The notes: generated by a model not told the origin, from the sequence alone. A stretch of 64,000 bases of DNA from Sphingobacteriaceae bacterium (GCA_947463785.1 CANHRG010000003.1:248001-312000), one strand, 5' to 3'; shown: positions 10,592-16,455, counted from the first letter of the stretch. Program-made: numbers and translations.

Positions 10592-11440
10592 TTAGGGATT
10601 ACAAAAATCGCAATACATCGGATCTTCCTGCTCCTTTTGGTTTGGGTACTTTTTATCTTCCACAAAATTACACTTCTGACAAGAATACCGATGAACTAAA
10701 ATGGAGCGTGTAGGTAAACCACATAAACTACAAGGCAAGCCTGGTAGTGCCTCTTTAACTGCAAAACCAGGCGTTTGACAGTTTGGACACTCTGTTTTAA
10801 GCAAGGTGACTAATTTTTCTGTTGCTTGTGCAATAACCGACATACGGGTTGGATTGTACATGGCACGCATATCGGTTTCAACGTAAACTTGTCCGTATAG
10901 ATTTATTAACTGCATGAAATGCCTTTTTAATACCGCCTCGTCAACTATTCCCTTGAGCTGCTCATCGTAGGTATCTGCAGACTTGCGTAAGATTAAACCG
11001 TGTTCCGGAAAACCACTTGCTTCGGCAAAATCCATCAATTCTTCGATGCTGCTCACGCTTTTGGCATTGAAGTTGGTTATCAGACTCAGTTCCGTAGCCA
11101 CAAACTCCAATTGATTTTTCTGGTCAATCATTACCACTAATTCTTCGTCTGCTGAAGCAAAAAATATACTTGGGTGTGGACCAAAAGAACCCTCACTGGC
11201 TATGGCCAAATCATGGCCGGTTAAGGATAAAGCCGCTAAACACTTCGCTCTGGCCGTTGCCAAGGGGCTAGCTGATCGTTGTTGCTGGCCACAAAAAGTT
11301 CCAAACGTATCGGTATTTAAGGAGTCACAAAGTACCGCTTTCAGACCAAAAGTACTTTCCAAAACGGGTGCAATCACCTGTTCCTTTTGGTGCATGGTTG
11401 CAATTACCACCGTTCTACCCTCAAATACTTGCTGACTCAA
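10592..11440 (-). CDS. DUF6671 family protein with C-terminal zinc-ribbon cysteines
   Basis: GRTVVIATMHQKEQVIAP start; CPNC, CSLC, CQKC, CDFC pairs at C-terminus. Confidence 0.7.
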   Translation of the reverse strand: MSQQVFEGRTVVIATMHQKEQVIAPVLESTFGLKAVLCDSLNTDTFGTFCGQQQRSASPLATARAKCLAALSLTGHDLAIASEGSFGPHPSIFFASADEELVVMIDQKNQLEFVATELSLITNFNAKSVSSIEELMDFAEASGFPEHGLILRKSADTYDEQLKGIVDEAVLKRHFMQLINLYGQVYVETDMRAMYNPTRMSVIAQATEKLVTLLKTECPNCQTPGFAVKEALPGLPCSLCGLPTRSILVHRYSCQKCNFVEDKKYPNQKEQEDPMYCDFCNP

Positions 11441-11461: not shown

Positions 11462-12871
11462 TTAGTTCAGTAAGCCCGCACTCCATTGCAAAGCATAAAT
11501 GGTTTTGTAGTACTTCGTTTTAAGCTCTATTAATTTTTCCTGGGCTTCGAGTGCTTTGGTTTCTCTGGCATTGATCAAAAACATCGAACTTTCTCCGTTA
11601 AAAAATCTAGTTTCTTCAGCTTTTACCAATTCAGTATAGTTTGTAAAATTGTTGCTTTGGAGGCTGGTTTGATTTTTCAAGTTTAGAAATTCGTTGAAAT
11701 ACGATTGTACTTTCAATTGAACTTTTAATCGGCTTTGATCCAAATCAAGTCTGGTTTCCTGTAATTTTAAATTGGCTTCTTTGTACGCACCACGTCCTTG
11801 AGAAAAACGCAATGGTATGGCTACTTTTAAGCCGTATTGGAAATTGTTTTCAAACAGATTATTTACGCCGTTGCTCGGAAACCACTGAGACCCTTTTGCC
11901 AAATGGTTGTAGGTTAAATCAATTTTTGGAAGTAAATCTTGAAACTTTAACCTTTTATCAATCACCAAGGATTCAATTTTATAATTGTATTGTCTCAAAT
12001 CGGGATGATTTTTTTCAGCGGCATCCATCAAATCGTTCAAAACCAAATTGAAATTCTGAATATTCAGTTCATTTTCCCATCCTTCCTGCGGAGTTACCTG
12101 CTCCGGAAGTCCATACGGATCACCATTGGCTTTCCACAAATAAGCAGAAAGCTGCAAGCCAGAATTTTGAAAATCGAGTAAGCGTTGATTTCGCTCAAAT
12201 TTGAAACTATTGAGTTGTGCAAGTGCTTCAACAGTATCAATTGCAGGTCGTTCTCCCAACAAATAGGCTTGTTTAACCAAATCGAAGCGCTTCTCGTTTA
12301 CTTCAACCACGCTTTTCAAGATAACCAAACTTTGATGAGCTTTAACCCAGTGCCAGTAGGCGTCCATCGCTTCCATCAACAAATTATTGATCACCGACTC
12401 TTGTGCTACCTTGGCCAAGCTATTCATCACTTTAGCCTGTTGTAGGGCTGCTCTACGCTTGTCTATCAGTAAGTTTTTAGCCAAGGGTATGCTAATGCCC
12501 AGGTAGCTAGATTGTCCGCTGGTTTCTGTAGGGTCTAAACGGTTTCCTGTCAGATTTTCTAAACCACTCGAAATTTCAATGCCGTACCAAGTTGGTATAC
12601 TGATTTCTGGCGAATTGTAATCGTAATAATTCAAACCATTAACCGTTTTTTTAGCCGTATAATTGCTAATAATTGGATCGAATGCTGCACGGGCCTGTGT
12701 AATTTCGGCTTTACTCTTCGCAATCGATATTGTTGTTTGCTTTACAACCGGGTGGTAGGTTCTAACAATAGCCAAAACCTGTTCAGCATTGAGTGTAATG
12801 AGCGAGTCTTGAGCCTGGAGCCGTACCGAAGTACAAATCAGGAAGAATAAAAACACACTTCTGAGTTTCAT
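11462..12871 (-). CDS. TolC family outer membrane efflux protein
   Basis: Signal peptide, long helical repeats, OEP-like architecture; overlaps upstream HlyD gene by TAATG. Confidence 0.88.
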   Translation of the reverse strand: MKLRSVFLFFLICTSVRLQAQDSLITLNAEQVLAIVRTYHPVVKQTTISIAKSKAEITQARAAFDPIISNYTAKKTVNGLNYYDYNSPEISIPTWYGIEISSGLENLTGNRLDPTETSGQSSYLGISIPLAKNLLIDKRRAALQQAKVMNSLAKVAQESVINNLLMEAMDAYWHWVKAHQSLVILKSVVEVNEKRFDLVKQAYLLGERPAIDTVEALAQLNSFKFERNQRLLDFQNSGLQLSAYLWKANGDPYGLPEQVTPQEGWENELNIQNFNLVLNDLMDAAEKNHPDLRQYNYKIESLVIDKRLKFQDLLPKIDLTYNHLAKGSQWFPSNGVNNLFENNFQYGLKVAIPLRFSQGRGAYKEANLKLQETRLDLDQSRLKVQLKVQSYFNEFLNLKNQTSLQSNNFTNYTELVKAEETRFFNGESSMFLINARETKALEAQEKLIELKTKYYKTIYALQWSAGLLN

Positions 12872-14214
12872 TACTTTTTAGCTTTAGTTGGCGCAGTATC
12901 TTTACTAACTTCATTTTTAACCTGATAAAAATCAGGAGGGAAGCCATTCACATTTCGCCACAATTCATACCAAATCGGCACGTCTTTAAGCAAAACGATT
13001 CCTTGAGCACCACTACCAATTTTCAATTGTGGGGGCCAGGGTTTTTCCGCCTTATCTTCCACCACCAAAATTCTGAACAAGCCATTCGGGCTGATGGTAT
13101 TTTCGTATGCAATGATTTTAGCCCCAAAGGTTCCATAACTGGCATTTGGCCAACCGCTGAATACGATTGCAGGAAAACCATCGAACATAAAGCGTACAGA
13201 CTGACCTACACCAATTAGCGGCAAGTCAACCGGGCGAACAAACATTTCAACCGCATAGTTTTTAACTTGAGGCACGATAATGGTGATTCGCTCTCCTTCT
13301 TTCAATACCTCACCAATGCCGCCTTTATTCGCTTGTACAATTTGTCCATCCTGTGGTGCCAAAATAATGTACATTCCATTCCGAATGATGTAATTACTCA
13401 ACTGATTCTCCAGTTTGGCAACTTCGCTCTGCCCGCTAGCCACCTGACTCAGGGTTTGATACCTATCGCCTTCTGCCTTACTTATTTTTTCGGTGTATTC
13501 TTGTTCAACACTGTTTTGTTCAATTTTTGTGTTTAACACCTCTTGCTGTGTTTGCGCCAATTTGTTTTCAGCGATTACTCTCTTTGCCAATGCATTTTGG
13601 AAAGCAATATTTCGTTGTTGCAATTGCGTTTGAGAAACTAAACCCTTTTCAAACATCAATTGCTGACGTTCGTATTGGTCTTTTGCAAGTTTGAATTCAT
13701 TGTTGGTAGCCGTAATTTCAGCGGCTTCAGCTGCCAGTTTATTATCTAACTGAATCAGTTTATTTTTAAGCTGTTCCAATTTCAAATCTCTGGCTTGTTT
13801 CAAGGCCTCAATCTGCGAACCAGTGGCAGTAATTTTACCTTCGTAAAAACCGATTGATCCTTTTTTTGCTTGCAATTGCTCTTGGGTTCTTCCAACCAAT
13901 TTTGGATCGAGGTAATCTTCTTTAATCTCCGAAATCTGGAGTAGTGTATCTCCCTTTTTTACATAATCGCCCTCTTTTACCCACCATTTAACTATTCGGC
14001 CGGGAATTGGAGAGTGAATATCTTGTGGACGTTGATCTTGATAAAGCGTTGTAATTACTCCCTTGGCTTTGATATTTTGTGTCCAAGGCAAAAAGAGGAT
14101 AATGAGTAAAAACCCGATAATTCCGAAGAACCAGTACTTTACTTTACTGTTTCTATCTACCAAATAAATCTGTTCGAATGATTTGAATGAAAATTGCTTC
14201 TTTGAGTTTTTCAT
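12871..14214 (-). CDS. HlyD family secretion periplasmic adaptor subunit
   Basis: Single N-terminal TM, lipoyl-like halves (IHSPIPGRIVKWWVKEGDYVKKGDTLLQI), coiled coil, APQDGQIVQANKGGIGEVLKEGE. Confidence 0.9.
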   Translation of the reverse strand: MKNSKKQFSFKSFEQIYLVDRNSKVKYWFFGIIGFLLIILFLPWTQNIKAKGVITTLYQDQRPQDIHSPIPGRIVKWWVKEGDYVKKGDTLLQISEIKEDYLDPKLVGRTQEQLQAKKGSIGFYEGKITATGSQIEALKQARDLKLEQLKNKLIQLDNKLAAEAAEITATNNEFKLAKDQYERQQLMFEKGLVSQTQLQQRNIAFQNALAKRVIAENKLAQTQQEVLNTKIEQNSVEQEYTEKISKAEGDRYQTLSQVASGQSEVAKLENQLSNYIIRNGMYIILAPQDGQIVQANKGGIGEVLKEGERITIIVPQVKNYAVEMFVRPVDLPLIGVGQSVRFMFDGFPAIVFSGWPNASYGTFGAKIIAYENTISPNGLFRILVVEDKAEKPWPPQLKIGSGAQGIVLLKDVPIWYELWRNVNGFPPDFYQVKNEVSKDTAPTKAKK

Positions 14215-14216
14215 AG

Positions 14217-15878
14217 TTAGTTATTTGTAACAAAATTTGCCGAACCATTCGTTAATACAATTTGCGCATCACACTTACTTGCAAAATCTACATCTTGTGA
14301 AGTGATAACAAGCGTGGTATGCGGAAGATTATTGAGCAAATACTGCTTAATTTTTGCTTCCACTTCCGGCTCCAGCCCTTCCCATGGATCTTCAAGCAAT
14401 ACCAATTTGGGTTGGTTAGCAAAAGCTCTTAGCAACAAAATATACCTCACTAAAGTACTTGGCATCTTTTTCCCGCTAGGGTCAAGTTGTGCATTGAATC
14501 CCCCTGGAAGCTGGTTTAAAAAATTTGAAATACCAAGCCCCTCTGCCATCATCATTACATCCTCCTGTTTAATCTCTTCTCTACCCATGGCAATATTTTC
14601 CCAAACGGTGCCCATAAAAATGTCCTGCTGATTCAAGAAAATACCAACCTGAGTTCTTAAACTTTCCAGCTGATAAGAGTTTATTGGAAGTTTATTCAAT
14701 AATAATGACCCCTCAAAATCGGCATAATTACCACTCAGCACCTTGAGTAGTGTAGATTTTCCAGAACCCTCTTGTGTTCTAACGCATACGGTGCTGTTAG
14801 ATTTAATGTGAAAATTCAAATCGCGAAGAACTTTTTTGGCATTTGGATAGCTAAAGCTGAATTCTTTAAACTGAATATCCAAACCTTCTCCCCGGGTATC
14901 CAATTCCACGTCGCCTTCATTTTCAAGCGGACTCTCAGAGATTACAGCTAATTTTTCTAGGCCAGTTACAACATCGTAAACACTTTCCAAGCTTCCTATT
15001 AATTTTTCGACCGCACCAATAACTGTAAGAATCACAATTTCTGCCGCAATAAATTCACCAATATTTAATTGCTGATTGATCAAAAGGTACGTTCCGGCAG
15101 TAAGCATAACCGTGGTAATTGCTACTTTGAATACCACAAGGGTTTGGTATTGAAACAATAACACTTTGAAGTGAGCCGTACGGGCACTCAAATAGCCAGA
15201 AACACGTTCATCGGTTTTCTTGAGGTTTAAGTGGGTACCTTGGCTAAACTTGAACGATTTAATTACACGTGCAATTTCAGAAAGCCATTCTACTACGGCA
15301 TATTTATAAGTGCTCTCTTTTAAACTGCTGGCCAATCCACTTGTCGCAGTCATTTTTAGGATTAACCACAAAACTAAAATGAGTAGCAACCCAAAAACAA
15401 TAAATACCGGATGGTAAAGTGATAATAATAACAGGCCAAATAGAATTTGGATACTCGCCCCAGGCACATCCAATAACAATTTGGATAGACCCTTCTGAAC
15501 ATTGAGTGTATCAAAGAAATAATTTACTTTTTCAGGTAGATAATAACTATCCATTTTGATCAGGTCGAAACGAGGTACCTTCTCCGCAAAATCATAGGCA
15601 TTTCGCGTGAAAATACGTTGTTGAATTTTCTCGATAATTTTCATCTGATTGATTTGCATCATACCCACCGAAAAAACTCCAATCACCACTAATACAATCA
15701 AAATATAAATAGAAGTAACCATGGAGGCGCCTAGTACAAAACTGATGATGGCTTGTACGCCTATTGGCACACTCAACTGGAGTAATCCGCTAAGAATTGC
15801 GTAAAAATAGACCGAACCTATTTCCTTTTTATCTAATACTATAAGCTCCCAAAGGCGTTTTAATGAATTCATAAACAC
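14217..15878 (-). CDS. ABC transporter permease/ATP-binding protein with degenerate nucleotide-binding motifs
   Basis: N-terminal TM domain and C-terminal NBD fold (RTQEGSGKSTLLKVLSG; Q-loop NQQDIFMGTVWENIAMG); signature, Walker B and H-loop altered. Confidence 0.85.
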   Translation of the reverse strand: MFMNSLKRLWELIVLDKKEIGSVYFYAILSGLLQLSVPIGVQAIISFVLGASMVTSIYILIVLVVIGVFSVGMMQINQMKIIEKIQQRIFTRNAYDFAEKVPRFDLIKMDSYYLPEKVNYFFDTLNVQKGLSKLLLDVPGASIQILFGLLLLSLYHPVFIVFGLLLILVLWLILKMTATSGLASSLKESTYKYAVVEWLSEIARVIKSFKFSQGTHLNLKKTDERVSGYLSARTAHFKVLLFQYQTLVVFKVAITTVMLTAGTYLLINQQLNIGEFIAAEIVILTVIGAVEKLIGSLESVYDVVTGLEKLAVISESPLENEGDVELDTRGEGLDIQFKEFSFSYPNAKKVLRDLNFHIKSNSTVCVRTQEGSGKSTLLKVLSGNYADFEGSLLLNKLPINSYQLESLRTQVGIFLNQQDIFMGTVWENIAMGREEIKQEDVMMMAEGLGISNFLNQLPGGFNAQLDPSGKKMPSTLVRYILLLRAFANQPKLVLLEDPWEGLEPEVEAKIKQYLLNNLPHTTLVITSQDVDFASKCDAQIVLTNGSANFVTNN

Positions 15879-15964: not shown

Positions 15965-16276
15965 TCAAACCAGCTCCGGAGGGAGATCGGATGAGCTCAA
16001 ATGTGGTGTGGAATGTTTCTCGATGTATCGATCAGATACTTTGCTGTTGATCACAAGAGAGAATGGACTAGCTTGTGCAGCTACAAGTAATTTTTCTTTG
16101 AAATCTTGTTTTAGCTCATTTGAAGAATCAGATCGCTTTTCGTTGCTTTTTTTAGGCTCAATTTCAAGAATGACAATAGATGCAACATTCGTATTTCTCC
16201 AATAGTCAGCGGTTATTACTGCTGAAAAAGAGAGAATCACTAAACAAGCTAAAATATGTTTTGCAGCTTTTATCAC
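15965..16276 (-). CDS. hypothetical small membrane or secreted protein
   Basis: 103 aa ORF with N-terminal hydrophobic segment; intergenic between exporter operon and tRNA-Ala. Confidence 0.5.
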   Translation of the reverse strand: MIKAAKHILACLVILSFSAVITADYWRNTNVASIVILEIEPKKSNEKRSDSSNELKQDFKEKLLVAAQASPFSLVINSKVSDRYIEKHSTPHLSSSDLPPELV

Positions 16277-16340: not shown

Positions 16341-16372
16341 GTTAAAAAAGAAGGCCCATGAATATGGGCCTT
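16341..16372 (-). terminator. terminator downstream of tRNA-Ala
   Basis: Minus strand AAGGCCCAT-ATTC-ATGGGCCTT followed by CTTTTTT. Confidence 0.75.
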
Positions 16373-16380
16373 GGATTTAG

Positions 16381-16455
<75 letters not shown>

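Follow-up and report, generated by a model that had tools for sequence, protein, structure and literature searches.

Tripartite pumps are sorted by their energy source into ABC, RND, and MFS systems. Three described systems are closest to the locus presented here. The type I secretion system HlyB-HlyD-TolC is encoded by an operon that combines an ABC subunit, a HlyD adaptor, and a TolC channel. TAP and TM287/288 contain one chain with non-consensus motifs in its nucleotide-binding domain (NBD) and form one complete ATP site with a canonical partner. This is a common arrangement, and many heterodimeric exporters have one degenerate half and one complete site. The third system is SbmA/BacA (SLiPT), and SbmA works without HlyD or TolC. 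Its ABC-type membrane domain (TMD) carries conserved acidic residues and is proposed to derive from a full ABC transporter through loss of the NBD (PMC13316013). SbmA is proton-driven via a glutamate ladder; it is an importer, has extra helices, and lacks coupling helices (PMC13316013). The likeness of SbmA to the family below is drawn by description.

The window, meaning the whole 64,000-nucleotide stretch that was analysed, contains an ABC-HlyD-TolC operon at 11462-15878 (-) with intact frames in all three genes. The ABC and HlyD genes are separated by 2 bp, and the HlyD and TolC genes overlap by 1 bp. The features of the locus are listed below.

11462..12871 (-), TolC-type outer membrane channel (Pfam OEP)
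12871..14214 (-), HlyD-type periplasmic adaptor, a membrane fusion protein (Pfam HlyD_3)
14217..15878 (-), pseudo-ABC exporter subunit, frame intact (Pfam ABC_tran, 9e-14)
15878 (-), GTG start of the pseudo-ABC gene; the ATG at 15872 is more likely
Residues ~1-315 of the pseudo-ABC protein, six-helix ABC TMD
Residues ~330-553 of the pseudo-ABC protein, degenerate NBD fused to the TMD
~14960..15050 (-), TM6 region with the family-specific conserved charges E280, E291, K292, and D302 (GTG numbering)
14751..14780 (-), Walker A, RTQEGSGKST, first Gly replaced by Thr and GSGKST kept
14451..14465 (-), signature position, MPSTL instead of LSGGQ
14388..14393 (-), Walker B Asp/catalytic Glu position, E-D instead of D-E
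14295..14297 (-), H-loop position, Gln instead of His (the SQ of TSQD is 14295-14300)
15965..16276 (-), small protein of 103 aa upstream of the operon, with a hydrophobic N-terminus and no known domain

An earlier note on this DNA had read the three genes as a full tripartite exporter, and the Pfam matches and intact frames bear this out: HlyD and TolC are encoded alongside the inner-membrane subunit. That subunit joins an ABC exporter TMD to an NBD fold and aligns over its full length to ABC exporters. The Pfam ABC_membrane model is matched in relatives, including one member without an NBD. When compared with the NCBIfam type I secretion models TIGR03375 (LssB) and TIGR01842 (PrtD), the best match of the ABC protein was the LssB type I secretion permease/ATPase, at 8e-48 and far below the cut-off. 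Unlike type I secretion systems, the family has no LSGGQ, catalytic Glu, or H-loop, and one clade lacks the NBD altogether. No secreted substrate gene was recognised adjacent to the operon. PADLOC returned one weak match for the operon, to the ABC C-terminus, and none for the other genes. Promoter-like sites in the window were at the level of the shuffled background, and terminator-like sites were slightly above it. An AlphaFold model of the window protein, built on an alignment with only two relatives, had a pLDDT of 41 and was set aside.

The sequences and coordinates that had been given for the Walker A, MPSTL, ED, and TSQD motifs were correct on rechecking. The ABC signature is missing, and E, D, and Q stand in place of the Walker B Asp, the catalytic Glu, and the H-loop His. 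The Q-loop region NQQDIF had been described as remaining, but an alignment to five canonical exporters from its own genome places an Asn at the Q-loop Gln position, and Gln occupies that position in only 8 of 73 family members. The Thr for the first Gly of Walker A is restricted to the window's genus (3/73). The remaining losses are family-wide.

The named near relatives of the window's genome are MAGs of Sphingobacteriaceae. Homologues of the pseudo-ABC protein, at 35-83% identity, were found in 17 of 60 relatives and, at the profile threshold used, in 100 of 393 genomes of the phylum. TMD-profile scores fall into two sets: a core family of 81 loci at no less than 391 bits, and an outer group of 19 loci at 213-335 bits, which comes from less closely related families of the phylum. 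Persicobacter, Aureibacter, and Riemerella plasmid copies are among the named members. Where annotated, the proteins are labelled as ABC transporter ATP-binding proteins, and because pipelines apply this name the loss is invisible in current annotation. No description of the family was found in the open-access papers searched. The single parts are familiar; a dead or absent NBD within a conserved HlyD-TolC operon is a new combination. Six loci (L065, L066, L067, L076, L081, and L096) and most of the outer group have an N-terminal extension of ~150-280 aa before the TMD, with no Pfam match in those tested.

Motif retention was counted over 73 distinct NBD-bearing core loci across Bacteroidota. 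Five residues of the nucleotide sandwich and of hydrolysis were scored: the signature Ser and second Gly, the Walker B Asp, the catalytic Glu, and the H-loop His. None is kept in 22 core loci, one in 46, and two in 5; scores are 2-5 in the outer group and 4-5 in the canonical exporters of the window genome. By residue, the signature second Gly and the H-loop His each persist in 1/73, the Walker B Asp in 5/73, and the catalytic Glu in 10/73. The swapped E-D pair is present in 39/73. The Walker A Lys is found in 71/73 and the A-loop aromatic in 51/73, with Walker A lost or badly altered in three scattered members (L124, L152, and L191). Recurring in 73/73 NBD-bearing homologues, this pattern is far beyond chance. 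Homologues with canonical motifs beside the same HlyD and TolC genes, the finding that would have spoken for strain-specific decay, do not occur in the core family. Only the distant outer group retains Walker B and mostly the H-loop, and its members L144, L157, and L133 are nearest to consensus (LSTGQ, D-E, H). It is very probable that the pseudo-ABC chain runs no normal ATPase cycle.

The NBD is nonetheless under selection. Close pairs whose dS is usable give NBD omega values of 0.03-0.11, averaging roughly double those of the TMD. As dS is saturated between the window and its two congeners (L014 and L015), omega for the window lineage was taken from the L014/L015 pair, where it is 0.04, and from the other close pairs. 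Across 16 matched genomes, the median pairwise identity of the pseudo-ABC protein is 66% in the TMD and 42% in the NBD. A canonical exporter from the same 16 genomes shows the reverse, 74% in the TMD and 82% in the NBD. Purifying omega values together with the inverted identities indicate an NBD that is maintained while constraint has shifted to the membrane domain. The proposed collection of homologues and check on selection thus came out in favour of the view that this is not simple decay, as the same losses are conserved throughout the family.

Seven core proteins (L135, L136, L137, L140, L142, L143, and L153) end after TM6 and are 332-339 aa in length. They form one clade with a support of 99, nested in the core family. 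Its sister is L096, in which the NBD is strongly eroded. In four of these loci the TMD gene runs a few bases into the HlyD frame, and gaps of 35 and 67 bases occur in the others, leaving no NBD remnant between TMD and HlyD. A split-off family-like NBD was sought elsewhere in these genomes and not found; the best NBD matches are ~30% identical, versus 38-44% among family NBDs, and the top matches belong to full-length exporters. The clade retains its coupling loops at full length. In the loop of coupling helix 2, which contacts the NBD, relative identity is 0.62 in the clade and 0.87-0.95 in NBD-bearing relatives, for positions assigned by homology in a small set. Relaxation in this clade only is expected if no NBD docks there. 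An ABC-type TMD without an NBD, the SLiPT arrangement, is found only in these seven proteins; the window protein keeps its NBD.

The TMD-HlyD-TolC order is present in all core loci, with or without an NBD, except for two short contigs that end in HlyD. HlyD and pseudo-ABC co-occur in the same 17 of 60 relatives in equal copy number, with two of each in G050.

Several charged residues in or near membrane helices are conserved and kept in the NBD-less clade: E83, E280, E291, K292, and D302. In that clade the residue at E291 may also be D; canonical paralogues lack the TM6 residues. These conserved residues could serve in proton coupling or bind the substrate. The same acidic residues are also found in the outer group, which retains most catalytic residues. 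They therefore did not emerge together with the loss of the NBD, and their role may be to bind substrate and not protons.

On balance, the locus is best read as a tripartite pseudo-ABC/HlyD/TolC exporter that is ABC-descended, non-hydrolysing, and plausibly proton-driven, a reading that as a whole is somewhat more likely than not. Its energy probably comes from a source other than ATP hydrolysis. The working unit would be the TMD with HlyD and TolC. The TMD would alternate access on the proton-motive force via the family-specific acidic residues, and the substrate would exit through HlyD-TolC. The NBD, with Walker A kept, may still bind nucleotide and would be at most a regulatory or structural remnant. 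Taken alone, the proposal that the proton gradient drives transport is plausible, a little short of probable. It is favoured because SbmA shows protons driving an ABC-derived TMD that has no NBD, and it draws on this analogy together with the conserved acidic residues. Most members of the family, unlike SbmA, still have an NBD, though a dead one, and are encoded in a tripartite export operon. The suggestion in the earlier note of a non-hydrolysing or differently energised exporter gains support, and is strengthened by the relatives without any NBD. Several points speak against the whole statement. The acidic residues are shared with the outer group, and the coupling loops of the NBD-less clade have their full length, unlike in SbmA. 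Walker A and the NBD frame are strongly kept, which speaks for a continuing role of nucleotide binding in most members, and the window lineage itself still carries an NBD.

The retained Walker A also speaks for a second explanation, in which nucleotide is bound and left unhydrolysed, gating a passive TMD-HlyD-TolC path through which substrate leaves down its own gradient. The near-universal Walker A Lys and common A-loop aromatic, beside the loss of the residues for the sandwich dimer and hydrolysis, favour such a gate, and the purifying selection on the NBD agrees with it. The NBD-less clade, however, keeps the same operon, so nucleotide gating is not essential to the core function, and Walker A itself has deteriorated in the three scattered members named above. 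An ATP-gated conduit is a possible but rather unlikely account.

Pairing of the pseudo-ABC chain with a canonical half-exporter encoded elsewhere, which would supply the ATPase, is improbable. Degenerate halves are common among heterodimeric exporters, and the search for a canonical NBD partner did turn up five other half-exporters in the genome; no canonical NBD gene recurs in or beside the core operons. In ABC ATP sites the usual geometry is cross-chain. Because one and the same chain has lost Walker B, the H-loop, and the signature, both composite sites would be broken, and the chain can form no complete ATP site with itself or, by that geometry, with a canonical partner. TAP and TM287/288 differ in this respect, having one complete site with a canonical partner. 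All members of this TMD family in the genomes are degenerate, with one per genome apart from two in G050, and the relaxed coupling loop of the NBD-less clade is also at odds with a docked partner. The idea of a pseudo-ABC half pairing with another NBD is thereby disfavoured.

A slow but real ATPase, in which E-D for D-E and a divergent signature would support weak hydrolysis, is slightly less probable again. Some ABC proteins tolerate an E-to-D change at the catalytic position. The E-D pair is held by more than half of the NBD-bearing core loci, Walker A is kept, and the half-exporter L005 of the window genome has D-D at the Walker B/catalytic position (its LSGGQ and H-loop are intact, the usual degenerate-half pattern). 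Set against this are the joint loss of the signature second Gly, the H-loop His, and the Walker B Asp, and the existence of a clade with no NBD. A decaying pseudogene, suggested by the streamlined genome of 1.8 Mb and by NBD change at about twice the TMD rate, is refuted for practical purposes by frames intact throughout, the low omega of the congeneric pair, and the family-wide pattern.

Homologues of the pseudo-ABC protein, their NBD beyond recognition, also occur on alphaproteobacterial plasmids of Sphingobium, Novosphingobium, and Sphingopyxis (L193, L194, and L195). In Sphingobium and Novosphingobium the adaptor and TolC follow, and neither Walker A nor the catalytic motifs survive; in the Sphingobium protein Pfam no longer detects an ABC domain. 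The gene in Sphingopyxis is truncated, with an IS3-family transposase at the break. The plasmid homologues group with the outer group in the tree, on a long branch with unsure rooting, and this position suggests that NBD erosion occurred more than once. As the tree was rooted with canonical exporters of the window genome, whose outgroup branches are very long, motif states and not the root are the basis for the direction of change. A DUF2309 protein, of the DabA-like kind, lies beside the Sphingobium homologue and was considered as a functional clue; it was rejected, being absent beside the Novosphingobium homologue.

More tentatively, a whole Bacteroidota lineage of tripartite exporters, and in parallel the Sphingomonadales plasmid lineage, may have switched from ATP to the proton-motive force. 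In such a switch the signature would be lost first, then catalysis, in some branches nucleotide binding, and lastly the domain itself in one clade, with the HlyD-TolC conduit unchanged throughout. If proton-driven export is true, RND and MFS would be joined by a further, new class of tripartite export pump that runs on protons. A widespread family with the ABC membrane fold and the HlyD-TolC conduit but without ATPase would blur the division of tripartite pumps by energy source. Such a family would also provide a natural intermediate series, from a near-canonical NBD to none, in which a change from primary to secondary transport could be tested one step at a time.

In 51 of the 81 core loci, one kind of TetR-type regulator is encoded just upstream, a hint that a small toxic compound may be exported on induction. 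The regulator is absent at the window and at the NBD-less loci except L137. No other neighbours were seen to recur across families at core loci. The 103-aa protein upstream of the window operon is conserved in two MAGs of the genus and ends in SDLPPEL/SDLPPEF; it is at most a candidate associate of the exporter. In front of several NBD-less operons in the same family lie comparable short proteins whose last residues are PPP. A DUF6671 protein (10592-11440, same strand) lies directly downstream of TolC; this position is without it elsewhere in the family and is held by an ORF of equal length in the window's genus. Upstream of the operon, a tRNA-Ala (ggc) followed by a strong terminator-like hairpin occupies 16351-16454.
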